A stretch of DNA of 42,327 bases, taken from NCBI GenBank assembly GCA_002842035.1, contig PHBP01000010.1, positions 1-42,327 on the forward strand, written 5' to 3'. Below are positions 2,347 through 41,687 of this stretch, in pieces. Below the pieces are notes generated by a model. It was given only the letters and a program-made list of their open reading frames with translations, ran no database searches and was not told the DNA's origin. The first letter of the stretch is position 1; every line of letters begins with the position of its first letter. The stretch comes from Candidatus Cloacimonetes bacterium HGW-Cloacimonetes-2. Its GTDB lineage: Bacteria > Cloacimonadota > Cloacimonadia > Cloacimonadales > Cloacimonadaceae. Made by a program: the position numbers and the translations under genes.

Positions 2347-5300
2347 ATGAAGTACATAATGATACTGATCATGTGCTTTCCAGCACTGTTGTTACTCTAC
2401 GGAGCATCCGGGGACTTCAACAATGGCTCAATTGTGATAGAATTTCCCAATAGCTTAAATCCCACGGTTGAAGATGGGGTAGTCATTACTGGATATGCAG
2501 CAGTAGACTCCCTTAACGCTGAATTAGGCGCAGTTGATTTCGAATATTATGACCTAAGTTGGACAACCAAGTTGAGGTATATATTGGTCCTTTACTTCGA
2601 CGAATCCAGATTGGTTGATGTTGAGAATGAAGCGGGCTCATACATACAGGCAACAGCTGGACTGGGAACTCGAGTAGAGCACTTCATGAACCCAGAGGTA
2701 AACTCAGTCCCCGGAGAATATCTGTATTCTGATACAATTTATCATCCTGAGGACACTCTCTGGCCAATGTACAATGATATGGATGATAAACGCAATTGGA
2801 GGATATTCGCGAGACTTCAGGAACAGGACGTACATGGTAATTGGTCGACAAATTATGATGCATGTGATCCATGGGAAGAGTATTATAATCTCACGAATCA
2901 GGTAGAGGTAAATGAGTTTAATAGACCCTTCCCATATAAATGGGCATATCATGGACATGCATCACTCTGGCATCACTTGGCTGATTATAACAATACTTAT
3001 AGAGCTTGGGATTATACTGAAGGAGAGAATACTTTAGCAATATGTTTGGACGGCCAAGGATTCTGGACTCAACACCCTGATCTTGTTGATCGTTGGCTTC
3101 CAGGATATCCTCAGGATTCGAACCATCACTATGTCCCTTCAGACCAGACACCAGCCACCTACCCAAGTTGGTGGAGTGGGAAGTACCATGGTACGAACTG
3201 CGCCGGAGCCTTGGCTGCGAGCAAGGAGAACCTGCCTGAAAGTGAATTGACTTCTCATAGTAGCGTGGGGGTCGCCCCACAAACAATGCTACTTGGAAGG
3301 GGCCATACATCCATACTTGATTGTCTGGCTTACTTACATCTACATCCGGAACTAAGTCCAGCGGTGATATCCAGAAGCCACACCCAGGAGTGGTCAGACA
3401 TAACTTTTGATGGATGTGAAGAATTGATTAGCATGGGAGTAACTATCGTGAATTCAAGAGGCTATGTCCAAAATTATCAAAGCTTTGCTTCCAAGTACGG
3501 TCGTTTGCTGGAAGGTTATATCTGTGTGGGAGACTACAATCCAGATTGGAAAATAAGGACAAAATACGATGTTGATATTTTGAACTCAAATGAAGATTTG
3601 TACAAAGCTGATATCAACGCTCCAGGATGGGATATTTGGGTACCAGGCATCCACCATACCTACGAATCAGGATTCACTCAAATTGGTTACGGGTTATCGA
3701 TGGGGACAAACACATCAATTGCTGCCCCTCAAGTGGCTGGAGTTGTGTGTCTAGTCAAGTCCTTATACCCTTGGATGTCCCCCCCCCAGGTTGAGAGGCA
3801 AATCAAAATGGGTGCTCATAATCTTGATGAGTTGATTGCCGCGAACACAACCTTTTTGCCCAATACTCCTCCGAGTTTCTTTGGTGCCGGTTGTTTAAAT
3901 GCCTACAGTTCGTTATTTCTGCATGGGACTTTTGAGCGTAATTTTGTTTTTTCTAATGAAGCTAATAATACCGCATTGTTAGGACGTGGCTTTACATTAA
4001 GTAATAGCAGCATGACTGTGGCAAATGGAACATTGAGAATTGAAAAGGATGCAAACATTTTGTTCAATAGCTCTGTGTTGATTCTCGGAGACAATGTTAC
4101 CGTTCAATTTGAGAAGGGGGCCAAACTAGATTTATGCCCAAATTCATCATTAGTGTTGGGAAACAATGTTACCTTTAGAACCGAGAACAATGATACATGT
4201 CTAGGGTTAGTGAAGTTTGGCAACAACACTCAAAGCATAACTTTTAATAACACTATATTTATAAATGTTCCTATTGAAATTAACAATACTGAAACTGCGT
4301 ACAACGGTTGTACATTCACACGATCTAGTTTGCTTCATAACAATGAACCTTTGAGTATCAACTATTGTGATTTCGAGTTTTCCGGATTGCAAGCCATTCA
4401 GACAGTTCCTGATCCTGATGATTTGTGTTGGATTGGGAATACTGAGGTAAGCAACTCAACATTAGCTGGCATACAAATCACTGGTTACTCTAAAGTGAAT
4501 ATTCAGAACAATAACATACACCACAACTTTAGTGGTATTGAATTGTACGAATGTTCTGGCGGTGTTGTTACAGACAACGAAGTCTCATACAATGGTAACG
4601 GAATACTGCTATATCATTCTAATGCAGACATTACTGGTCATAACAACATTACTTATAATTATAGTAGTTCTGGACACGGAGATAATAGGGGAGGATATGG
4701 TATCGATGCTCGACATTTGACCAGTTGGAATCTCATAGGTCAGGATACTTATCCAATCCAGATCATTCACGATAATCAACGAGAACAGATTTTGATGCAG
4801 TCTAATTCAATCCCTTCCTCAATGTATTTTAACAAAGTATATAGTTCCAATCATGATAAACCGTATCTTAGGATGTGGGATGATTACATTGGATCATCTC
4901 GTATGATAAACATCTCCAATAACAACTGGTCTAGTGACTTCATCCCTACAAGAGATCTATCTCCTGAGTCTGCATTTACCTATTTGCCAATGTGGGAGCC
5001 AGGAATACCTTTACAAGTTTTGGAAGATGAAGCATTTTTGCTGTTTGAGGAAGCTATGTCAGCAGCTAATAATATGGACTACGTTGTTGCTGAGCAAAAA
5101 TTGAAGCAGATTATTGCAGAATACCCAGAGACAAAAGTCTGTGTTGATGCATCGAAACAGCTCTTGATTTTGGTTGAGAAGTATAATCAGAACTATGAGG
5201 CTTTGGAGTTATACTATACAACCTATCCCACACTGAGAAATGACCCAATTCTGATAAAAATGGCAGACTATTTAGCCAATTTCTGTAAAATGAAGTCTGG

Positions 5301-5835
5301 GGATTATCCTGAAGCTATACAGTTTTTTGAAGATCTGATTCTTAATCCTCCAAGTTTACCAGATTCATTGTTTGCTGTTATTGATGCGGGGTATGCCTAT
5401 TTGTTAATGACACAAAACTCAGACAAGAGCTCTTATGTCGGAGATCTAAAATGGTTAAAACCAACTTCTGTCTCGGCTTACTTGAATAGCCGCAATGCTC
5501 TGATCAATAACAGGCTATTAGTAGCAACTCAGCATAGTCAAGAAACACCTGATTTTCCCGAGGCGATACGAATCAGTAACTATCCCAACCCCTTCAATCC
5601 GAACACTACTATAAACTTCTATCTACCTGAGCCAGACAATGTAGTTCTGGAAGTATTCAATATCAAAGGACAAAGAGTCAAAACTTTAATAAACGATTAT
5701 AAAGAAGCTGGATCGCATAGTTTTGTGTGGAATGGAACAGATCAGACCGGACGTATCGTCTCCTCGGGAGTATATTTCTATAGGTTATCGACAGGAACAA
5801 GATCAATAGTAAAAAAAATGTTATTGATGAAATAG
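2347..5835 (+). CDS. Secreted subtilisin-like (S8) serine protease with beta-helix and type IX sorting domain
   Basis: This is a 1162-residue exported protease. A signal peptide covers residues 1-20. The S8 triad is readable: Asp235 in AICLDGQG, His281 in KYHGTNCAG, and Ser457 in NTSIAAPQVAG. The Ser block has two extra residues compared with the usual GTSMAAPHVAG, and no normal AAGN oxyanion block is evident after GVTIV (363-368), so activity is likely but not certain. Residues of about 530-830 are Asn-rich and repetitive (NNTI, NNNIHHN, DNEVSYNGNGI), typical of a right-handed parallel beta-helix. A helical TPR-like stretch follows (about 900-1030). Residues 1076-1162 are a textbook type IX sorting domain (NYPNPFNPNTTI, FNIKGQRVKTL, SSGVYFYRL). 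A run of nine C occurs in codons near residue 479. The ribosome site is GAAGGAG. A strong terminator follows the stop codon. Confidence 0.9.
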   Translation: MKYIMILIMCFPALLLLYGASGDFNNGSIVIEFPNSLNPTVEDGVVITGYAAVDSLNAELGAVDFEYYDLSWTTKLRYILVLYFDESRLVDVENEAGSYIQATAGLGTRVEHFMNPEVNSVPGEYLYSDTIYHPEDTLWPMYNDMDDKRNWRIFARLQEQDVHGNWSTNYDACDPWEEYYNLTNQVEVNEFNRPFPYKWAYHGHASLWHHLADYNNTYRAWDYTEGENTLAICLDGQGFWTQHPDLVDRWLPGYPQDSNHHYVPSDQTPATYPSWWSGKYHGTNCAGALAASKENLPESELTSHSSVGVAPQTMLLGRGHTSILDCLAYLHLHPELSPAVISRSHTQEWSDITFDGCEELISMGVTIVNSRGYVQNYQSFASKYGRLLEGYICVGDYNPDWKIRTKYDVDILNSNEDLYKADINAPGWDIWVPGIHHTYESGFTQIGYGLSMGTNTSIAAPQVAGVVCLVKSLYPWMSPPQVERQIKMGAHNLDELIAANTTFLPNTPPSFFGAGCLNAYSSLFLHGTFERNFVFSNEANNTALLGRGFTLSNSSMTVANGTLRIEKDANILFNSSVLILGDNVTVQFEKGAKLDLCPNSSLVLGNNVTFRTENNDTCLGLVKFGNNTQSITFNNTIFINVPIEINNTETAYNGCTFTRSSLLHNNEPLSINYCDFEFSGLQAIQTVPDPDDLCWIGNTEVSNSTLAGIQITGYSKVNIQNNNIHHNFSGIELYECSGGVVTDNEVSYNGNGILLYHSNADITGHNNITYNYSSSGHGDNRGGYGIDARHLTSWNLIGQDTYPIQIIHDNQREQILMQSNSIPSSMYFNKVYSSNHDKPYLRMWDDYIGSSRMINISNNNWSSDFIPTRDLSPESAFTYLPMWEPGIPLQVLEDEAFLLFEEAMSAANNMDYVVAEQKLKQIIAEYPETKVCVDASKQLLILVEKYNQNYEALELYYTTYPTLRNDPILIKMADYLANFCKMKSGDYPEAIQFFEDLILNPPSLPDSLFAVIDAGYAYLLMTQNSDKSSYVGDLKWLKPTSVSAYLNSRNALINNRLLVATQHSQETPDFPEAIRISNYPNPFNPNTTINFYLPEPDNVVLEVFNIKGQRVKTLINDYKEAGSHSFVWNGTDQTGRIVSSGVYFYRLSTGTRSIVKKMLLMK

Positions 5836-5878: not shown

Positions 5879-6205
5879 AAGTGGGTTACTCTTTCTGCAA
5901 TTAGAAAGACCTAAGACTTTAGATTGTAAATGCAAAAGCTGCGATCAGATGGTGCAATAAGTGAGGCTTACTAGTGCTTTCTTTACTGTATCGACGTTGA
6001 GACTTTGCAAGTCTATCACAAAAAAGTTAGTGTCCACCAAAAAATGAATCTTGCTCCACCGGCTTTGAGCCCGCAATTGGAGATGTATAGGTCAGACGGA
6101 GTGAAGCTGTCCAATTTCTGCCCGGTTGAGGTGTGTAGGCATAGATCTCATAGCGCTTGTCCAGAATATTCATCAGCTTTAGATTCGCCTATTATTAGCT
6201 TAGTC

Positions 6206-6325
6206 CTCTCCTGCCGCACAGTCATCCCGAGATCAAGAGCAGATCAAGAGCAAATCAAGTCGAACGTGGTTCGACTTGATTTGCTCTTGAATTGCTTTTG
6301 ATATGCTCTTGACTATAGGGGGGGG
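6206..6325. repeat. Modular palindromic element, copy 1
   Basis: The core is an inverted repeat pairing 6232-6265 with 6269-6302: 34 bp around a GTG loop, with one A-A mismatch and otherwise Watson-Crick or G-T pairs. It is assembled from 11-nt modules: on the left ATCAAG-AGCAG, ATCAAG-AGCAA, ATCAAG-TCGAA; on the right the reverse complements of ATCAAG-TCGAA, TTCAAG-AGCAA, ATCAAA-AGCAA and GTCAAG-AGCAT. A CTCTCC on the left and a run of eight G on the right may be the outer ends, by comparison with copies 3 and 4. The outer limits of this copy are less sure than the core. Confidence 0.85.
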
Positions 6326-6393
6326 AAGGAGGGTGCAGCTATCCACTGCAGCAATTGTGCAGCTACTTGAAGTCTATATGTGGGAGGCAGTTC

Positions 6394-7164
6394 TTATTGC
6401 TGTGATGAATTGATAAAGGAGCCGATGATGTCGTCGATTTCACCCTTTACGAGCATCTCTCGCAAAGCTTTATTGATTTTATCCCGGTGCGGCGAGTTCT
6501 TTCTAAAAGCTATGGCATACTGCTCGTTTGTGGCATACTCGAAGGCAACCGTAAGGGGATTGCTCTGGGTAAAGCTCTGTGCCGGAGCATGATCAAAGAT
6601 GGCAAAATCTATCTCACCATTCAATAGGGCTGCCAGGGTCTGGGCATTGGATCCAAAAGTCTGTAGCATCTTTCGGGGCATCAGATTGGTGGCAATCAGC
6701 TTTTCATTGAGCAGCTTGGCGCCGGTCGTAAGATTCTGAGTCCCAACTCTGTATGCTGCCAGATCTTCCAGCTTGCTGATCACAGCAGGATTGTCACTCC
6801 GCTTCAAAAGAGCTTGCTTGGATGTGAAATAGGGAACTGAATAATCCACGAGCTGCTTGCGCTCTTCAGTAACTGAATAAGCAGAAATGATCATATCAAT
6901 CTTCCCTGATTGCAGAGAGGGGATCAATTGCTCAAAATCCAGATCCATAATCTCATAATCAAAGCCTGCCAATTCTGATAGCCGTTTGATTATCTCGATA
7001 TCTATGCCCACAAATTCCGTATCCACCCTGGATTCAAAGGGAGGATATTCCACGTTCATCCCGATAACCAGGGTCTCACGCTTGCTTTTTTGACAAGAGA
7101 AGATGATAAAAAATATTGCCACTACCACCGATAATAGCAATAGATAAGGCAAAATACGCTTCAT
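6394..7164 (-). CDS. Amino-acid-type ABC transporter solute-binding lipoprotein (family 3)
   Basis: This 256-residue protein belongs to the bacterial extracellular solute-binding family 3 (SBP_bac_3), which binds polar amino acids or similar small ligands. A lipoprotein signal is present (hydrophobic 4-22, then IIFSC with Cys24), so it should be membrane-anchored. Family landmarks are VIGMNVEYPPFES near residue 33, FVGIDIEIIKRL, the segment GKIDMIISAYSVTEERKQ, a QALL strand, and GEIDFAIFD. AAGGAGAG lies 6 bases before the ATG. There is no permease or ATPase next to it, so its transporter partners must be encoded elsewhere. It is separated by 163 bp from the Nif3-like gene upstream and probably has its own promoter; a TTGACA is present on the minus strand at 7231-7226. 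The ligand cannot be told from sequence. Confidence 0.85.
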   Translation of the reverse strand: MKRILPYLLLLSVVVAIFFIIFSCQKSKRETLVIGMNVEYPPFESRVDTEFVGIDIEIIKRLSELAGFDYEIMDLDFEQLIPSLQSGKIDMIISAYSVTEERKQLVDYSVPYFTSKQALLKRSDNPAVISKLEDLAAYRVGTQNLTTGAKLLNEKLIATNLMPRKMLQTFGSNAQTLAALLNGEIDFAIFDHAPAQSFTQSNPLTVAFEYATNEQYAIAFRKNSPHRDKINKALREMLVKGEIDDIIGSFINSSQQ

Positions 7165-16925: not shown

Positions 16926-17705
16926 ATGAAATCCATCTGGTGCCTGCTCGTGATCCTGCTATCCGCTTCAATGCTGATAGCAGAGCAGGATACGGCTTAC
17001 CTGAGTGCATATCTGGAATCCTATCCCCATACTGTACTCAAAGGGGCAAGTGCGCCTCTGAAATGGCAGGCTAAAGACTGGATCCTCGCCTCCGGTGTGG
17101 TCGCTGCAGGCTGTGCGCTTTACATTGCTGATGAGGAAATCCGCGATATGAGCCAGCGTAACCGCAGCCCCTTCACAGATGACCTGATGACCGGCTTCAA
17201 GCAGTTCGGGGAGGGAAAATACATCATCCCTGTGATGGGACTCACCATCCTGGGCGGGCATCTTGCAGATCATCCCAAGACCTTTGATACCGGAATGCTC
17301 TGCCTCAAGAGCTTTATCATCGCCAATTCCGCCACGCAGGTGCTCAAATTTGCCACTCAAAGACAGAGACCTATCTCAAACAACGGCAATAATTTCTGGA
17401 ATGGAGAAGGCTTTACCCGGCGCAGGGATTCTTTCCCCTCCGGGCATACCACGATCGTCTGGAGTCTGGCACCGGTGATCGCCGATCAGTACAAAGATTC
17501 ACCCCTGGTGCCTCCTTTGGTTTATACGATTGCCGGGCTGACGTCTTATTCCCGCATAAACGATGATAAACACTGGGCTACAGACGTCTTTGCCGGGGCG
17601 GTGATCGGCTATCTTTCGGCAAAACTCACTCTAAGTGGTACTCCCAGATTGCAGTTTTACCCGGATCCCCGGCTCAAAGGTCTGGCATTTCAGTATGGGT
17701 TCTAG
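16926..17705 (+). CDS. PAP2-family phosphatase, exported
   Basis: This 259-residue protein has a signal peptide (1-19) and the three phosphatase motifs of the PAP2 superfamily: KFATQRQRP (Lys141-Pro149), PSGH (171-174) and SRINDDKHWATD (Ser209, Arg210, His216, Asp220). Members dephosphorylate lipid phosphates, including undecaprenyl pyrophosphate, phosphatidate and lipid A. Being last in a peptidoglycan elongation operon makes undecaprenyl pyrophosphate recycling attractive, but the substrate is inferred. There is no clear ribosome site before its ATG; coupling to the preceding small gene, 9 bases upstream, is likely. Confidence 0.9.
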   Translation: MKSIWCLLVILLSASMLIAEQDTAYLSAYLESYPHTVLKGASAPLKWQAKDWILASGVVAAGCALYIADEEIRDMSQRNRSPFTDDLMTGFKQFGEGKYIIPVMGLTILGGHLADHPKTFDTGMLCLKSFIIANSATQVLKFATQRQRPISNNGNNFWNGEGFTRRRDSFPSGHTTIVWSLAPVIADQYKDSPLVPPLVYTIAGLTSYSRINDDKHWATDVFAGAVIGYLSAKLTLSGTPRLQFYPDPRLKGLAFQYGF

Positions 17706-17863
17706 CCAGTGGATGAGTGAATAAGTGATTTGCTGCGCTGGGGGCAGGGACTGCGTCCCTTGCAGTAAGAACTTAGTCAGTTTGAACTTAGCACTGCGCA
17801 TTGTTCGAGGATTGTTTCTAACAGGCTGAAACTGTCTTAGCTGTCGTCATCCATCTGATATAC

Positions 17864-17916
17864 GTGGGTGCGTCATCCTGACGCACAGTATCTGAGCGAC
17901 AAGATGTCGCTCCTAC
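17864..17916 (+). repeat. REP/BIME-like pair of hairpins, copy A
   Basis: There are two perfect 8-bp stems with 3-base loops: GTGCGTCA TCC TGACGCAC (17868-17886) with foot GTGG on its left, and GAGCGACA AGA TGTCGCTC (17894-17912) with foot CTAC (reverse complement of GTAG) on its right. The feet point outward, as in BIMEs made of two inverted REPs. An inverted copy is at 28504-28558. REPs with GTAG-type feet are typical targets of RAYT (REP-associated tyrosine) transposases; none is encoded in the window. Confidence 0.8.
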
Positions 17917-17949
17917 CCCCCCCCCTCAGTTATTCCTGGGACTGCCAGT

Positions 17950-18082
17950 TCTTGCCCCAACACCCATAGGTTCCAAGGTATCACCAGCAGATCAAGAGCA
18001 AATCAAGAGCAATTCACCTCGAACCACGTTCGACTTGATTTGCTCTTGATCTGCTGGTGATATGCTTTAGTCAAGAAAGGAG
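17950..18082. repeat. Modular palindromic element, copy 2
   Basis: The left arm has four modules (ATCACC-AGCAG, ATCAAG-AGCAA, ATCAAG-AGCAA, TTCACC-TCGAA) and the right arm three (complements of ATCAAG-TCGAA, ATCAAG-AGCAA, ATCACC-AGCAG), around a CAC centre at 18025-18027. The outer 24 bases (17979-18002) match 18039-18062 perfectly, but only if the inner 11-nt module is looped out. The right flank keeps the full ATATGCTTTAG end. Outer limits are approximate. Confidence 0.85.
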
Positions 18083-18277
18083 AATGAGCTAAGAGCTTGT
18101 AACGTTATCAAGATGAGTCTGAGTCCCCATTGTCCATAAAAAGCTTTAGTGAAACATACTAACATGGCCTTTACACGCAATTCCATTCATAATACGGTCA
18201 CAATACTATGATGCTATTCTGCAGGTGCCACCAATTCAATAATTAAGTGAATTTCCAGCGCTCGCTTACAAATCAGC

Positions 18278-19125: not shown

Positions 19126-19163
19126 AAGATCTGTCCCAAAATGCCAAATCTGTCCCCCATATA
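19126..19163 (+). repeat. 38-bp dispersed repeat with two ATCTGTCCC boxes, copy upstream of purA
   Basis: It contains two direct ATCTGTCCC boxes about 21 bases apart and ends CCCCCATATA. A copy matching 34 of 38 positions lies on the minus strand at 38692-38655, also upstream of and in the same direction as a gene. It could be a paired operator, or the end of an insertion element. Confidence 0.65.
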
Positions 19164-19224
19164 CTAATGTAAGCACTTTCAGAAAATGCGGTTTTCTCTG
19201 TGCCGGAAGGTGGGGGAAAAAGAC

Positions 19225-26034: not shown

Positions 26035-26802
26035 ATGAAGATTCTGCTCCTGTTACTAGCGATGACGGTAATGGGAGCAGTCACTTTTTTGGGTGCAGTG
26101 GTGATCGAATCCACCGCCAGCCTCAGCGGACTCAATGGCATTACAATGCTCTCCTCCAATCCCGCTGACCACGCCTTTTCCCCACTGATTGGAAGCCGCG
26201 GGATCAGCTATTCCCTGTGCAACAACTTTGGCACCTCGGTCGCAAACGTCTATGGGCTGGGAGTTGCGGATCGTGCCGGAATCTTTCAATTGGCATCGGG
26301 TATCCGGCTCCAGAGCTCCGAAGACTACCGCTGGCAGGACCAATACGCTTCTCTGGCTATTATGGATCCCGGAAATCACGTTGGTATCGGTGCGACTCTG
26401 CATCTGGACTACCAAAAAGCCGGCAGTGCTCCCTCGACTTACGACTGGTCTTGGGATGCAGCTTGCAAAGCAGATTGGGGCGATTATGGTATGGAATTTC
26501 GCCTGATCAGGATGGATTCCGAGGATCGTCAGCTTCACATCACAGCTGTCAGCAGGCTTTACTCCGATATGGCATTTGCCACCACCTATGTCTGGGGAAA
26601 GAACGGCTATGCCTCACTGAGAACTGCCAGTTCTTACACCATCACGGATGAGATCATCCTGCAAAGCTCCTGGCAAAGCAATCCCTCCCGCTTTGGTGCC
26701 GGACTGCAGATCAAAATCGACAAGCTCAATCTGAGCTATGCAATTCGTACGCACAACGAGCTGAACCTGACGCACTGCTTTGATCTGGGCTATAGCTGGT
26801 GA
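26035..26802 (+). CDS. Exported beta-rich protein, PorV-like barrel candidate
   Basis: This 255-residue protein has an N-terminal hydrophobic signal (1-19). The mature start, LSGLNGITMLSSNPADHAFSP, resembles a shortened form of the PorV-type opening (...SNPA...). It then consists of alternating strands with Tyr/Trp (ASLAIMDPGNHVGIGATLHLDY, RLYSDMAFATTYVWG, INKLNLSYAIR-like end) and finishes on FDLGYSW, an aromatic C-terminus typical of outer-membrane barrels. An outer-membrane location is inferred; no function is known. It overlaps the next gene by four bases (GTGA). Confidence 0.6.
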   Translation: MKILLLLLAMTVMGAVTFLGAVVIESTASLSGLNGITMLSSNPADHAFSPLIGSRGISYSLCNNFGTSVANVYGLGVADRAGIFQLASGIRLQSSEDYRWQDQYASLAIMDPGNHVGIGATLHLDYQKAGSAPSTYDWSWDAACKADWGDYGMEFRLIRMDSEDRQLHITAVSRLYSDMAFATTYVWGKNGYASLRTASSYTITDEIILQSSWQSNPSRFGAGLQIKIDKLNLSYAIRTHNELNLTHCFDLGYSW

Positions 26803-28304
26803 AACGGGCTTTAGTCCTAATACTCGCTCTGATTCCCTGTCTGTTCTATGCTCAGTTCGCTGTGTCTGATAGTATCTTTTCGCCCTCCAGCCCTGCCGAA
26901 GACACTGCGACCCGCTATTATGATCTCCTGCAAAAGCTTTTGGATCAGGAGCTTGATAGCTACCAGTTACGCGGGACTTACTCCTCGGATACCTACAAAC
27001 TAAAGTCTGCCATTCGATACGCTAATCTCCGGATAAATGGCTCGTTTAGCCTAAAAGATGGCGATACCCGGGAGAATGCCAGCCTTAGCTACAGGAATTC
27101 CAAATCCTGGCTACGGGAGTTTCGCCTGATCAATTATGGAGTTGATTTTGCCCGTGGACTGATGATCGGCTCATCCGGCTATTCTAATGAGCTGATGCGT
27201 TTTAACAATCCCGGAGATGCAGCTTATTACTATCTTTCAGGGCTGGCTGTGGAGCTGGAATCCCGCAATCTGAAAGCCGATCTTTTCATTTCCCGGCAGG
27301 ACCGCCGCAGCCTGAATGCACCCACGGGAAGACTCTCGAGGACAAAGAATAACGGTCTTTACTCCCTCAGGGAAGAGATCGGAGGGATCGGACTGAGCTA
27401 TGAGACCAGGCATCTCAAGCTCGCAAGTCTTTACTACCATCAGGATTACATCAGTGATGGCGCAGATGACTCCCTGCCCGCTATGGATGCTCTCAGCCTG
27501 GCAAGCGATTGGCAGAAGGGGCGTCATCAGCTTGCTCTAGAGGCTGCTCTTATCGGGGATGGCAACGCCCAAAAACTGCTCTGGCGAGTGAAGGATCGCA
27601 AATATGACCACAGCTTTCAGCTCAGCCGGGGCGATCGCTACCAGCGTCCTGCCTATGCAGCTTTACCTCACCAACTCTCTGGCAGCACCAATGGTTTGGA
27701 GTGGTCTCAGGATCTTGATCTTGTGCTCAGTAGGATGTTTACAGCTTCTGTAGCATATCAATCATATATTCCCGGCAGTCATCTCGAACTGGATAAAGCA
27801 CTCTCGGTCTATAAATTAGGTATCGCTTACCGGGACTCTTTGAATACGGTTCGCTTGCTGCTCAGGAGCTTGGATAGGGCGATCCTTACTGCCGCCGATA
27901 GCAGCTATGTCAGCACCAAGCCGCGCCACCAGCGGATAAGTCTTGAGCTTTCCCGCGAGATCAACGCAAATCTCGATGCCGCAGTTTATTTCCGGTATCA
28001 ACTGGAGGAACGCTCTGTTTATGAGAACAACGCCTCGTATTGGAGTGCCAGAATCAAGTGGCATAATGATTTAATGAGTGTGCAGGGAGCTCTCCAAAGC
28101 TGGCAGACCACCCGTGAATTACTTATCGGGGAGACTTCTTTTTCGTTCGGTGAAATCACCTTGGAGCCGGTCAATTCTGATCGACTGCGCTTTACTTTGA
28201 GCGCAGACTATAAAATAAAGAAATTGAAGCTGGGTTTGGGAGCCACTTACTCATTCTTTGATCAGAAGCTGGTTAGTATCTATGTAAATCTCTCCGGGTC
28301 ATAA
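26799..28304 (+). CDS. Outer-membrane barrel-like protein of unknown function
   Basis: This 501-residue protein starts with GTG inside the stop of the preceding gene, so it is translationally coupled to it. A signal peptide ends FYAQ. After a helical segment (TATRYYDLLQKLLDQELDSY) the rest is a run of amphipathic strands. The region INYGVDFARGLMIGSSG...AAYYYLSGLAVELE is reminiscent of the barrel part of FCB-group proteins that carry ComEA-type helix-hairpin-helix domains, but the hairpin domain is missing here. The C-terminus GLGATYSFFDQKLVSIYVNLSGS looks like a closing strand. No catalytic residues are seen; outer-membrane location is inferred. Confidence 0.55.
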   Translation: MKRALVLILALIPCLFYAQFAVSDSIFSPSSPAEDTATRYYDLLQKLLDQELDSYQLRGTYSSDTYKLKSAIRYANLRINGSFSLKDGDTRENASLSYRNSKSWLREFRLINYGVDFARGLMIGSSGYSNELMRFNNPGDAAYYYLSGLAVELESRNLKADLFISRQDRRSLNAPTGRLSRTKNNGLYSLREEIGGIGLSYETRHLKLASLYYHQDYISDGADDSLPAMDALSLASDWQKGRHQLALEAALIGDGNAQKLLWRVKDRKYDHSFQLSRGDRYQRPAYAALPHQLSGSTNGLEWSQDLDLVLSRMFTASVAYQSYIPGSHLELDKALSVYKLGIAYRDSLNTVRLLLRSLDRAILTAADSSYVSTKPRHQRISLELSREINANLDAAVYFRYQLEERSVYENNASYWSARIKWHNDLMSVQGALQSWQTTRELLIGETSFSFGEITLEPVNSDRLRFTLSADYKIKKLKLGLGATYSFFDQKLVSIYVNLSGS

Positions 28305-28330: not shown

Positions 28331-28453
28331 CTCCCCCTGTGCTTGCCTATGGTCTAAAGCATATCACCAGCAAATCAAGTCGAAATCAAGTCGAACCACG
28401 TTCGAGGTGATTTGCTCTTGATCTCGACTTGATCTGCTGTAGATTGTGGGGAG
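28331..28453. repeat. Modular palindromic element, copy 3
   Basis: The ends are CTCCCC (28331-28336) and GGGGAG (28448-28453), 123 bp overall. Left modules, outer to inner: ATCACC-AGCAA, ATCAAG-TCGAA, ATCAAG-TCGAA. Right modules as reverse complement, outer to inner: ATCAAG-TCGAG, ATCAAG-AGCAA, ATCACC-TCGAA. The centre is TCGAAC CAC GTTCGA. The arms carry different module orders, so pairing is interrupted at 2- to 4-base steps while the 11-nt register is kept. Confidence 0.88.
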
Positions 28454-28503
28454 ATATGGAGTGGAGGAGGGAATGACGGAGTGGATGGATTTAGGTATGG
28501 GGT

Positions 28504-28558
28504 GTAGGAGCGACATCCTGTCGCTCAGATTGGCTGTGCGTCAGGATGACGCACCCAC
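28504..28558 (-). repeat. REP/BIME-like pair of hairpins, copy B
   Basis: This is an inverted copy of the pair at 17864-17916: GTAG, then GAGCGACA TCC TGTCGCTC (28508-28526), then GTGCGTCA GGA TGACGCAC (28536-28554), then CCAC. Stems are identical to copy A; only one loop and the linker differ. The two hairpin types in one pair are therefore inherited as a unit. Confidence 0.82.
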
Positions 28559-28675
28559 GATTAGTAAATGAATCAGGACAGAGAAGAAAGCGCTTAACGC
28601 AGAGGCAAGTAACGAAACAGGTTCTGTCAATTAGAAACGATCTTCAATTAAACCGCAGCGCTAAGATCTACCTGC

Positions 28676-31600
28676 CTAAGACATCTCTATCAGGCTTTGC
28701 AGGCTCTCGATAGCTATCTCAAACTGGTTCATATAGTCCAGCCGTGCGTGATGTTCCAGCTCTATGACCAGTTTCAGGCCTCGTGACAGATCAAAGCGGA
28801 AGGGATGCTTGAGCTTGCCGCCCAATTGCAAGAGCTGCTTTTTGGAGGGTAGATTGGTCTCTCGGAATTCCATCGTGATCACACCATTGCGAACCTGGCA
28901 GGTCTGCAATCCGGCTTGTTTGGTAAGTACTTTGAGCTGGAAATAAAGCATCAGCCAGCGCGCTTTATCGGGGATTTTACCAAAGCGGTCGCTGAGTTCC
29001 TGCTCCAGTTCCTTTAGTTGCTCCAGATCTTCCAATTCATTGATCCTGCGGTAGATCCTCAGTCTCTCCTCGTCGTCGTCTATGTAGTCCGTGGGGAGAT
29101 AGAGGTCAATCTCCGTCTTGAGGCTCATCCTCTGCTCGGGGCTTTCCTCGATCCGGGCATCTTCGCCCTTCTCTTTGATCTCCAAAGCGTTTCCGAGGAG
29201 TTTGTTGTAATAGTTAAAGCCTATTGATTGGATGATTCCGCTCTGTTTGGTACCCAGGATAGTGCCGGCTCCGCGAAGCTCGAGATCACGCAGAGCTACC
29301 TGGAACCCTGCGCCCAGATAGTCGTATTGGGTGAGGGCTTCCAGACGGTGTTTTGCGTCTGTGGTAGTGCTTTTGGGGATCAGGAGATAGGCGTAGGCAC
29401 GGCGGTTGCTGCGCCCTACCCTGCCGCGCATCTGGTACAATTGAGCCAGACCGAAGGTGTCCGCCCGGTCGATGAGAATGGTATTGGCATTTGGTATGTC
29501 GATCCCATTTTCAATGATTGTGGTGCTGATCAGGACTTGGTATTCGCGGTTCAGGAAAGCATCCATCACGTTTTCCAGGTGATGCTCCGGCATCTGAGCG
29601 TGGCCAACCCCAAAGCTTACACCCGGCATAGCGGTTCTCAGTTCTTCTGCTACAGTCTCAATCGTCTGGACCCGGTTGTGGATAAAAAAGACTTGTCCGC
29701 CGCGATCGATCTCTCTACGGATGGCGTCTTTGATCACTTCGATATCACGCGGGGTGATGATGGTGCGTATCGGTAGTCTCTCCTTGGGAGAGGTCTGCAT
29801 CAGCGAGATTTCTTTCAGCTTGGCAAGGGCAAGATTGAGGGTGCGGGGGATGGGCGTCGCGGACATATATAGCGTATCCACATTGCTTTGCAGCCGGCGC
29901 AGTTTCTCTTTGTGCCTTACTCCAAAGCGGTGTTCCTCATCGATGATCAAGAGCCCGAGCTTTCTGAAGCGGACGTCCGCAGAAAGCAGCCTGTGCGTAC
30001 CGATGGCGATATCGATCTCGCCCATTGTGATGCCGACCAGGTCACGTTTTACCTGCTGACTGGTGCGGAACCGGCTGAACATCGATATTCTCACCGGATA
30101 CTGAGCCATTCTCTCCTTGAAAACGCGGTAGTGCTGTTCTGCAAGGAGGGTTGTCGGCACTAATACAGCTACCTGATAACCGCTGCAAACGGCTTTGAAA
30201 GCGGCTCTGATAGCTACTTCCGTCTTGCCGAAACCAACGTCGCCACAGAGCAATCTCTCCATCGGAGCAGGCAGTTCCATATCGGTTTTGATTTCTTTGG
30301 TAGATCTTGCCTGATCCTCAGTATCGTCGTATATAAAGGATTCTTCCAGCTCTCTTTGCCATTCGGTATCCGGCTTGTGAGGAATTCCGGCACGCTTGGA
30401 GCGCTCTGCGTAGAGCTTTACCAGTTCTGTGGCAACCAGCTCAATCTGCTCCTGGGCTTTCTTTTTGGTATTATTCCACTTGGCAGAGCCGAGCTTGCTG
30501 AGGACAGGCTTGCTGCCTTCTTCGGCTACGTATTTGGAGAGCAACTGCAACTGGAAGGTAGGCACATAGACCCTGTCTTCATCGGCATATTCCAGCACCA
30601 GACACTCCACGTCCTGTCCATCCAGCTTGATGATCCTAAGTCCTTCAAAGATGCCTATTCCGTGGTCAATATGCACCACATAGTCTCCGGGCTTGAGGTT
30701 TTCATAATCGATGATCTGCTCACCAGGTGAGTAGCGGGGAGTGTAGCGTTTGCGTTTGTAACGGTTGAAAATTTCGTGGTCTGTAAAGAGCTCCAGCCCG
30801 GTGTCTTCGATGAAAAAGCCTTCGTGCAATACTCCCAGATGCTGGTCGCAATCGAGCTGATAATCCGCGAGCAGTTCCCGCATACGTTTGCTTTGGGATT
30901 CATTGTCAAAGAGCAGGATTGCGTGTGCAGAGAGGCTATCGAGCTCTCTGAGGCGCCTGCTGAGCAGCTCCAGATCGGAGTTGATTGCGGTCGCGGAGAC
31001 AAACGGGGCACGGGTGGATGCGACTTCAAAGGGCAGCACGAATTCGCTTTGGGAGAGGAAGAGATTTCGGGAGCTATTGATCAGGCTGTAGATGTATTCT
31101 TCTCCGGCAAGGATCTTCTCGGGTTTGGGCAGTTTCGCCTGGCTGTGGTTTTTCTTTTCACGTTTATACTGCTGTATGCACTGCTCCAGGAGCTGTTCAA
31201 GTTCCTCTGCGATATAAGGATAATTGTTCCAGATGATTAGCCTGTCATCAGCCGGGAAGTAATCCGGGAAGCATTCCGTCTGGGGGATCAGCAGGCTGTA
31301 ATAGTTTTCAATGCCTTCAAAATAGCCTTTGCTGCGCACCTGGCTGATAATTGGTGAAGCGCTGATAACGTCGTCCAGAGCGAGCTCTCGGGCCGGGATG
31401 ATGCTGATCTGCTTTAGGTCTCCGGGTTCTGAACGCTGAGTCTGGGCAGAGAAATGCCTGATCGAGACGATTTCATCGCCATAATACTCCAGCCTCACAG
31501 GCTTTTGCAAGGGAGGGCTGAAGACATCGACAATGCCGCCACGCCGGGCAGCTTGGAAGACCTTGGCGACCTGATACTCGATCTCATAGCCCATATTTGC

Positions 31601-32074
31601 CAAATCCAGCATTAGCTCTTGAGGGGGATACTCATCGCCTTGTTTGATCGTACGGATGTGACGCTTGAGGCTGTTTCCCGGAGGCAGGTATCGGATCAGG
31701 GCTCGGATAGAGAGGCTATAGACGGCTGGTTCACCTGCGATGGCACTCAGGAAGGATTCCATTCTGGTGGCACGGATGGAGTAGTGCGGAGAGCGTTCTT
31801 CATAGGGCAGGATCTCGTAATCCGGCAGGTAAAAAGCCTTGTCTCTGCCTATCAGCACGCAGAGATCGTCCCAGATGTCTTCGGCGATTATGTCATCCTG
31901 TGAGACGATAATCAGGTTCTTGCCGCTGGTTTTATAGAGGTCTGCGGCAGCTAAGGCACGGGCTGATTGATTGAGGTGGTAATGCTGCTCTCTTTGGGCT
32001 CCCTTTGGGATGTCTCTTAGAGCTTTGAAATATGGTGATCTGTCCAGGTAAGCCAGTATCTTGTCGTAAAGCAT
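28676..32074 (-). CDS. mfd: Transcription-repair coupling factor
   Basis: This 1132-residue protein is close to the usual Mfd length. Its N-terminal UvrB-like region includes YEERSPHYSIRATRM and RRGGIVDVFSP. The CarD-like RNA polymerase-interacting domain is about 455-525 (LKPGDYVVHIDHGIGIFEGL). The superfamily 2 translocase has Walker A GDVGFGKT (611-618), DEEH (712-715), SATPIPRT and the TRG-type GAGTILGTKQSG. Mfd removes RNA polymerase stalled at DNA lesions and recruits UvrA. The ATG lies 3 bases after the helicase gene stops, so the two repair genes are coupled. It is the last gene of the minus-strand operon. Confidence 0.97.
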   Translation of the reverse strand: MLYDKILAYLDRSPYFKALRDIPKGAQREQHYHLNQSARALAAADLYKTSGKNLIIVSQDDIIAEDIWDDLCVLIGRDKAFYLPDYEILPYEERSPHYSIRATRMESFLSAIAGEPAVYSLSIRALIRYLPPGNSLKRHIRTIKQGDEYPPQELMLDLANMGYEIEYQVAKVFQAARRGGIVDVFSPPLQKPVRLEYYGDEIVSIRHFSAQTQRSEPGDLKQISIIPARELALDDVISASPIISQVRSKGYFEGIENYYSLLIPQTECFPDYFPADDRLIIWNNYPYIAEELEQLLEQCIQQYKREKKNHSQAKLPKPEKILAGEEYIYSLINSSRNLFLSQSEFVLPFEVASTRAPFVSATAINSDLELLSRRLRELDSLSAHAILLFDNESQSKRMRELLADYQLDCDQHLGVLHEGFFIEDTGLELFTDHEIFNRYKRKRYTPRYSPGEQIIDYENLKPGDYVVHIDHGIGIFEGLRIIKLDGQDVECLVLEYADEDRVYVPTFQLQLLSKYVAEEGSKPVLSKLGSAKWNNTKKKAQEQIELVATELVKLYAERSKRAGIPHKPDTEWQRELEESFIYDDTEDQARSTKEIKTDMELPAPMERLLCGDVGFGKTEVAIRAAFKAVCSGYQVAVLVPTTLLAEQHYRVFKERMAQYPVRISMFSRFRTSQQVKRDLVGITMGEIDIAIGTHRLLSADVRFRKLGLLIIDEEHRFGVRHKEKLRRLQSNVDTLYMSATPIPRTLNLALAKLKEISLMQTSPKERLPIRTIITPRDIEVIKDAIRREIDRGGQVFFIHNRVQTIETVAEELRTAMPGVSFGVGHAQMPEHHLENVMDAFLNREYQVLISTTIIENGIDIPNANTILIDRADTFGLAQLYQMRGRVGRSNRRAYAYLLIPKSTTTDAKHRLEALTQYDYLGAGFQVALRDLELRGAGTILGTKQSGIIQSIGFNYYNKLLGNALEIKEKGEDARIEESPEQRMSLKTEIDLYLPTDYIDDDEERLRIYRRINELEDLEQLKELEQELSDRFGKIPDKARWLMLYFQLKVLTKQAGLQTCQVRNGVITMEFRETNLPSKKQLLQLGGKLKHPFRFDLSRGLKLVIELEHHARLDYMNQFEIAIESLQSLIEMS

Positions 32075-38560: not shown

Positions 38561-38654
38561 CTTCACTCCATCATCTTTCTTAGTTTTCAAGTCCATCAGA
38601 TATCCAATTTTTGTCAATATGTAAATCCCGGTTTGATCCACCACCCTCCATTAT

Positions 38655-38692
38655 TATATGGGGGACAGATTTGCTCATTTGGGACAGATCTT
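38655..38692 (-). repeat. 38-bp dispersed repeat with two ATCTGTCCC boxes, copy upstream of the WecA-like gene
   Basis: This copy has 34 of 38 positions identical to 19126-19163, read on the minus strand. The same similarity continues as TATA(A/C)TAATG. It ends 95 bases before the WecA-like start codon, compared with 118 bases before purA for the other copy. Confidence 0.65.
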
Positions 38693-40639: not shown

Positions 40640-41395
40640 CTATTTTCTGTGTTGCTGGCGGGTTTTATAGAGCTTCTCGGTGAAGCCATCCTCTTGGGTA
40701 AATGCCTCAGCCAGAGCCCGGATCTGTCTGTCAAGCATGGCACATGCCACACCGATCAGCACCAGCGCAGCATTGGCAGCCAGTTCGGAGTATTGGGAGA
40801 TGGGTAGCTCAGGGGAGCTGGTGGCTGCTATGGGCTTAATGGACGATATGGACGATATGGACGATATGGACATTCCTGGAGTCTCTGCGCATTGTCCATT
40901 ATGTCCATCACGTCCATCTTGTCCATTCTGTCCATCAGGCAGACCCTGTCTTGCTTGACCATCCTGTGCTTTCCTTTCTCTACTCCGCAGTTCCTTCACC
41001 CACTCTGCCACTTCCTCGGCAGTCTGGCAGCGTCTTTGCAACAGTTCTTTTCTGCGGGGATCATCATCAGCCCAAAGGGCAAATCCCCGCTGCCGGAGAT
41101 AATCTTCATAATCCAGCTTGAGCTCTTCCAAGCTAGCCCTGGCAACATTGGTCAGCTTCAGTTCGGTTTTCTTGGAGGTACCGCTGGCCAGGCTGCCTTC
41201 CGCGATGTTTTGCACTCCGGATCTGGCAGCCTGAACCATCTGATCATTGGTTCTGCTATATTTGTCGATATACCGGTCGCAGAAGCGCACCGTGAGGTCA
41301 TAGACCAATTGAGCTAGCTGAAAGCTCTTGAGCTTGCGATAGCCTCCGTGTTTGGGAATTAGAATACCTGCTCCACTCTTTAATGCTGCTGCCAT
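40640..41395 (-). CDS. Four-helix-bundle (23S rRNA intervening-sequence-like) protein with low-complexity insert
   Basis: This 251-residue protein belongs to the four-helix-bundle family related to the S23 / IVP proteins. Its N-terminal 120 residues carry the conserved blocks KLKSFQLAQLVYDLTVRFCDRY, RTNDQMVQAARSGVQNIAEGS and TELKLTNVARASLEELKLDYEDYL. A low-complexity insert (about 145-190) translates 9-nt DNA repeats into GQNGQDGRDGHNGQ and SISSISSIS. The last 50 residues are helical again (NAALVLIGVACAMLDRQIRALAEAF), so the insert splits the bundle from its suffix helix. GGGAG precedes the ATG. The molecular role of the family is unknown. Confidence 0.82.
   Translation of the reverse strand: MAAALKSGAGILIPKHGGYRKLKSFQLAQLVYDLTVRFCDRYIDKYSRTNDQMVQAARSGVQNIAEGSLASGTSKKTELKLTNVARASLEELKLDYEDYLRQRGFALWADDDPRRKELLQRRCQTAEEVAEWVKELRSRERKAQDGQARQGLPDGQNGQDGRDGHNGQCAETPGMSISSISSISSIKPIAATSSPELPISQYSELAANAALVLIGVACAMLDRQIRALAEAFTQEDGFTEKLYKTRQQHRK
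40839..40937. repeat. Two inverted 9-nt repeat tracts inside the four-helix-bundle gene
   Basis: Tract 1 (40839-40873) is three and a half units of ATGGACGAT. Tract 2 (40893-40937) is five units of (T/C)GTCCATNN. ATGGAC and GTCCAT are complementary, so the tracts can pair as a hairpin with a regular 3-base interruption. Three more units (TGTCCATTA, TGTCCATAC, TGTCAATAC) lie outside the gene at 41437-41463. Confidence 0.8.
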
Positions 41396-41476: not shown

Positions 41477-41598
41477 CTCCCCCTGCCTGGCAGAGGTCTA
41501 AAGCATATCACCAGCAAATCAAGCCGAAATCACCTCGAACCGCGTTCGACTTGATTTGCTCTTGATCTGCTGGTGATATGCTGTTGATCAAAGGGGAG
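41477..41598. repeat. Modular palindromic element, copy 4
   Basis: The ends are CTCCCCC (41477-41483) and GGGGAG (41593-41598), 122 bp overall, the best-preserved copy. Left modules: ATCACC-AGCAA, ATCAAG-CCGAA, ATCACC-TCGAA, preceded by the cap GGTCTAAAGCAT. The centre is TCGAAC CGC GTTCGA. Right modules (reverse complement): ATCACC-AGCAG, ATCAAG-AGCAA, ATCAAG-TCGAA, ending ATATGCTGTT. Confidence 0.9.
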
Positions 41599-41687
41599 TA
41601 TCAGGAAATCCGGATGAATACCCCAGGTCGAGATCAGGCTTTTCCCTATGCTTGGTTGAGTATTTACTACAGCTTAACTATAAACCC

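Follow-up and report, generated by a model that had tools for sequence, protein, structure and literature searches.

The window, the whole stretch of 42,327 nucleotides analysed here (contig C6:1-42327 of a 2.507-Mb genome in 14 contigs), contains the four copies of a palindromic element that a first-pass annotation had noticed. Copy 1 (6205..6329, dyad at 6267, ±62 bp) occupies the convergent gap between a subtilase-like gene (2347-5835, plus strand) and a gene for a solute-binding protein (6394-7164, minus strand), and copy 3 (28336..28460, dyad at 28398) lies in a second convergent gap, between a gene at 26799-28304 (plus strand) and a TRCF-type Mfd gene (28676-32074, minus strand), bearing out the earlier remark that two of the copies separate convergent genes. 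Copy 2 (17964..18088, dyad at 18026) follows a PAP2-family gene (16926-17705, plus strand) in a gap between tandem plus-strand genes, and copy 4 (41480..41604, dyad at 41542), with 11-bp arm units such as AGCAAATCAAG, lies in a divergent gap to the right of a minus-strand gene (40640-41395). Six flanking genes were identified around the four copies. The previously noted centre TCGAAC NNN GTTCGA was found in every copy, with GTG as the middle triplet in copy 1 (6260..6274), CAC in copies 2 and 3 (18019..18033 and 28391..28405) and CGC in copy 4 (41535..41549); neither the elements nor their cores are assigned a strand. Copies 3 and 4 do share GGTCTAAAGCAT and C-rich and G-rich ends, as had been described, but the exact ends given for them amount to a loose consensus family-wide.

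A covariance-model search of the whole genome, which the first-pass annotation had proposed, was run with a model built from 43 copies and returned exactly 58 copies of this family, here termed class A, each detected on both strands and all 58 at full length. The family thus extends well beyond a few copies, and it gave no Rfam match that would place it in a known named repeat family. Given that the bare 12-base core is expected to match by chance ~0.15 times, class A is no chance occurrence. Its arms consist of tandem 11-bp units such as CTTGATTTGCT, which reach to ~7 bp from the dyad and vary at fixed positions only, for example as CT or GG at positions 8-9, where 35-36 of the 43 copies carry CT in one arm and GG in the other, compared with ~21 expected. 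Two copies separated by 10 kb, at C9:18657 and C9:29011, are oppositely oriented and match perfectly over 91 bp. A same-species contig showed 99% identity over 2.6 kb, and the single orthologous copy compared, L097 versus C2:388276, differed by three core changes, with indels in the flanks; in L097 and L103, the only two contigs compared from the same species, both sites were occupied.

Class A occurs mainly in C2, C6 and C9. A terminus or origin macrodomain site of the matS/parS kind was considered and rejected, as the GC skew of C2 has no switch and the dnaA contig carries class B, another sequence class. Because the dnaA contig bears the same architecture in the form of class B, the regional absence of class A is an effect of class. 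A plasmid or phage origin was likewise rejected, as collections of plasmids and phages yielded no match.

In a sequence-blind scan for palindromes with arms repeating at a given lag, in which lags were compared within the same sequence, 89 palindromes were recovered at lag 11 and at most six at each of lags 9, 10, 12, 13 and 14. The source genome contains at least seven unrelated classes of sequence, class A among them, with a common architecture of ~90-125 bp, dyad-symmetric ends and arms of tandem 11-bp units; the others are B (GTGATCCCCTA), C, D, E (related to B), F, G (CAGGATACAAG) and H. In this genome the classes are dyad-symmetric and 102-125 bp long, and most end in loose CTYCC/GGRAG inverted ends. 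Neither the 11-bp arm units nor the further classes that share them had been described in the first-pass annotation. In relatives, sampled at 193-320 kb each, the same architecture appeared with different sequences in another species of the genus and in four or more other genera, the latter with ATCAAAAGTAT, ATCAATACGGA, ATCAAGCGTTA and TCTCTCTTAGC classes and a GTCC class; the complete genome G011 carries AAGCAATGGGT and ATATGGGAATC classes, and the elements of G044 and G011 are 91 bp long. Class A is missing from the congeneric G001, which carries 13 AAGACTCGGCG-type elements of the same architecture in 193 kb. No 11-bp-unit palindrome was found in a 50-kb E. coli stretch, in phage Mu or, above a strict threshold, in ~130 kb of G026 from another family of the order, and the literature searched, with partial coverage, describes no such element for Cloacimonadota.

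Class A forms a very stable fold (z −7.5 and −5.6), and a turn of A-form RNA takes 11 bp, so that transcribed hairpins acting as bidirectional terminators, mRNA 3′-end stabilisers or processing sites have to be weighed. However, class G showed no such folding: of four copies, three had z ~0 and one −1.9, so a hairpin is not the shared feature. Over the whole class A stem, standard pairs made up 74.4%, compared with 78.4% in shuffles, with none of the 500 shuffles falling below the observed value; double changes were also fewer than in shuffles, and no compensatory covariation was observed. The arms carried 8.2 mismatches per 39 positions, compared with 7.1 per 39 for re-paired arms (P 0.0005). 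Pairing below and mismatches above chance indicate that the palindrome is kept imperfect, possibly through avoidance of a perfect, unstable palindrome. No T-run follows the stem, and the window gave no Rfam match. The asymmetric classes G and B/E showed no preference for gene orientation (9/9 and 8/6), which also speaks against a transcribed role. With the class G fold, covariation and orientation bias all absent, RNA hairpins were rejected as the shared feature, and we regard the transcribed-hairpin explanation as quite improbable, even though the elements are enriched at 3′ ends and in convergent gaps.

That enrichment was measured in a catalogue covering 1.15 of the 2.51 Mb (C2, C6, C9 and parts of C10 and C14), with gene calls from a purpose-written script that placed 86% of the catalogued DNA in coding sequence. 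None of the 106 elements, at 96 loci, lies inside a gene. Among gaps of at least 150 bp, elements occupied 27 of 39 convergent gaps (69%), compared with 53 of 167 tandem and 15 of 63 divergent gaps (24-32%; Fisher P 6e-6), and in tandem gaps the element lay nearer the upstream 3′ end in 42 of 59 cases (P 0.0015).

The elements also keep a distance from one another. Not one of 91 spacings across classes was shorter than 3.6 kb, whereas random placement in gaps gave a mean of 19.7 short spacings (minimum 8 in 5000 draws), and when gap types were matched there was one short spacing against 17.6 expected (minimum 7). The repulsion acts across classes, with non-A loci avoiding A loci (P 0.006). The overall spacing CV of 0.71-0.75 is only moderately low, the strong signal being the hard lower limit. 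The exception is a set of ten abutting pairs in C2, C9, C10 and C14, 98-150 bp from centre to centre, which always include class G together with A, E or F. Even spacing was also seen in both distant genera tested: in G048 three pooled classes (18 elements) had a minimum spacing of 9.1 kb, and in G011 the minimum among 11 elements was 10.6 kb (P 0.0013).

These observations bear on whether the elements are MITE- or REP-like mobile repeats of the non-autonomous kind, with each class amplified on its own and the spacing set by insertion into tolerant gaps or by target immunity. The copies within a class are clearly amplified, as the 58 class A copies and the pair identical over 91 bp illustrate, terminal inverted repeats are present in most classes with recurrent CTCCC/GGGAG-like ends, and the elements are exclusively intergenic. 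Against this, a check for target duplications in classes A, G and B/E showed that identical 3-8-mers were not over-represented at any of the boundary offsets, and the full-length state of every class A copy leaves no partial or decayed ones. Moreover, a single transposing family would not predict repulsion between classes without common sequence, and we know of no basis for target immunity across unrelated sequences. The sole Y1 (RAYT-like) transposase match, at C2:456445-456648 (L262) in a 242-aa open frame, is flanked by a different repeat, namely REP-like hairpins on both sides (GGTCCGTC/GGAGCGAC, GTGGGTCCGTCATCCTGACGGACAG and GAGCGACAGGATGTCGCTC), not by 11-bp-unit elements. We therefore consider mobile repeats an improbable explanation. 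Of the earlier description as non-autonomous, MITE-like or structural, the structural part is supported, and the MITE-like part is not, given the missing target duplications and partial copies and the cross-class spacing.

The elements resemble MITEs in being short and multi-copy with inverted ends, but differ in having cross-class spacing and neither target duplications nor fragments. Like the BIME-2/REP sequences of Enterobacteria, which bind gyrase, they are palindromic repeats that lie between genes, frequently at 3′ ends; REPs, however, form a single sequence family of RAYT-made hairpins, 20-40 nt long and carrying a GTAG-type motif, whereas the elements here measure 90-125 bp, are built of 11-bp units, fall into many classes and are evenly spaced. 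ERIC and other intergenic palindromes of 100-170 bp are similar in length, imperfection and location, but each is one sequence family, and we know of none with an 11-bp-unit architecture or even spacing across families. The "class A flexible patterns" of prokaryote genomes, 11-bp periodic nucleotide patterns proposed as protein interaction sites, are degenerate, ubiquitous and at most 50 bp long (PMC1242344), in contrast to the discrete, amplified elements found here at about one per 10 kb.

Taking these observations together, the best reading is that the four window palindromes belong to a single sequence class within a set of double-stranded DNA structural sites that spans the chromosome and is constrained by shape and spacing, not by sequence. 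What unrelated sequences have in common can only be recognised as shape, and bases recurring every 11 bp in each arm, roughly a turn of the helix, present the same groove face turn after turn. The lack of a hairpin in class G, the mismatch excess in class A and the lack of target duplications fit poorly with either an RNA hairpin or a MITE, and we consider it likely that the elements are evenly spaced, structure-read double-stranded DNA elements of some kind. The 11-bp period over ~90-125 bp, taken with the two-fold symmetry of the sites, suggests that the DNA wraps around a protein that is itself two-fold symmetric; a period above 10.5 would suit a right-handed wrap. The sites would thus be wrapped by a shape-reading, sequence-indifferent protein, with selection retaining about one site per 10-20 kb. 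Intergenic elements at such intervals throughout a family of uncultured bacteria suggest fixed anchor points, perhaps for gyrase, that help to organise the chromosome. More specifically, and with somewhat less than even confidence, we propose a family-wide chromosome ruler, in which wrapped sites defined by helical architecture and spacing, not by sequence, set supercoiling domains, with several interchangeable classes per genome that are fully replaced between congeneric species and sit in convergent and 3′ gaps.

If such a reader exists, DNA gyrase is the most likely protein, an assignment that we make only tentatively from comparison with known gyrase sites. The two element arms would wrap on the two GyrA C-terminal domains, and the sites would capture gyrase where positive supercoils collect, in convergent gaps and behind 3′ ends, at roughly one capturing site per supercoiling domain. 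The source genome encodes a GyrA with six CTD blades, and structural work on gyrase places AT minor grooves on the inner face, against each CTD blade (PMC11626157). In E. coli, the gyrase motif is 130 bp long and symmetric, with arms of 10.75-bp GC period, and the enzyme is enriched at BIME-2 and drawn downstream of transcription (PMC6379681). Most classes here match the ~130-bp dyad-symmetric footprint of a strong gyrase site, although some relatives have elements of only 91 bp, and their 11-bp phasing, as opposed to 9, 10, 12 or 13 bp, is near 10.75 bp. Like the Mu strong gyrase site, they would be read via DNA bending and not via sequence, are intergenic and would be linked to supercoiled domains; the 400-500 supercoiled domains of E. 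coli, at ~10 kb each (PMC3820752), are near in size to the element spacing seen here. On the other hand, the E. coli motif has a non-periodic central 36 bp whereas class A units reach ~7 bp from the dyad, and it is degenerate, in contrast to the exact 11-bp tandem units, amplified families and even spacing of the present elements.

The phase of GC along the arms gave a mixed picture. Modulo 11, it was 7.2 for the Mu strong gyrase site, 7.4 for class A and 7.2 for class B. Several consensus elements had a phase near 1-2 or 9-10, and measured from whole-element dyads the phase was not common to all classes (Rayleigh P 0.9), although an earlier pass had looked coherent; with that coherence lost, a universal GC phase was rejected as proof of gyrase. 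A GC-phase model derived from the elements ranked the Mu gyrase site in the top ~0.6-5% of Mu under the better settings, but the scan of phage Mu did not single it out.

A different nucleoid or wrapping protein would account for these observations too. A non-gyrase nucleoid or segregation protein could bind the 11-bp phased arms and anchor or loop the chromosome every 10-20 kb, which would agree with the failure of the universal GC phase expected of gyrase; even spacing across classes would suit any shape-reading organiser, as would sequence turnover with a fixed architecture. Yet no candidate protein was identified, and a bias towards convergent gaps and 3′ ends points to supercoil handling more than to a general organiser, so that we think an organiser other than gyrase rather unlikely.

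How the size of bacterial supercoiling domains is determined has yet to be settled, as has the question of whether genomes encode gyrase sites. The E. coli signals are degenerate, whereas here, if the reading is true, the sites are discrete, countable and evenly spaced, and sequence turnover with shape and spacing kept provides a natural experiment in shape-based DNA recognition. Should gyrase not be the reader, the elements would point to an unknown chromosome organiser. The example further shows that repeat families without common sequence can act as a single functional set, which a search for repeats by sequence overlooks.

Other repeats accompany the elements. A separate REP-like family of GGAGCGACATCCTGTCGCTC and GCGTCAGGATGACGC hairpins occurs in the window at 17832-17921 and 28499-28590 and also in C9 and C14, and 10 of 14 REP-like clusters lie within ~205 bp of an 11-bp-unit element. 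A 44-nt inverted pair (AAGATCTGTCCCAAAATGCCAAATCTGTCCCCCATAT), 89% complementary, is separated by 19 kb in the window (19126-19169 and 38649-38692). To the right of copy 4, inverted-repeat stretches (TATAAACCCTCACTGAAAACTTCAAAT) bound a ~6.6-kb unit from window position 41678 to C6:48348, possibly a mobile unit; the same TATAAACCCTCACTGAAAACTTCAAAT repeats recur in C12, at the start of C14 and in the viral contig L103.
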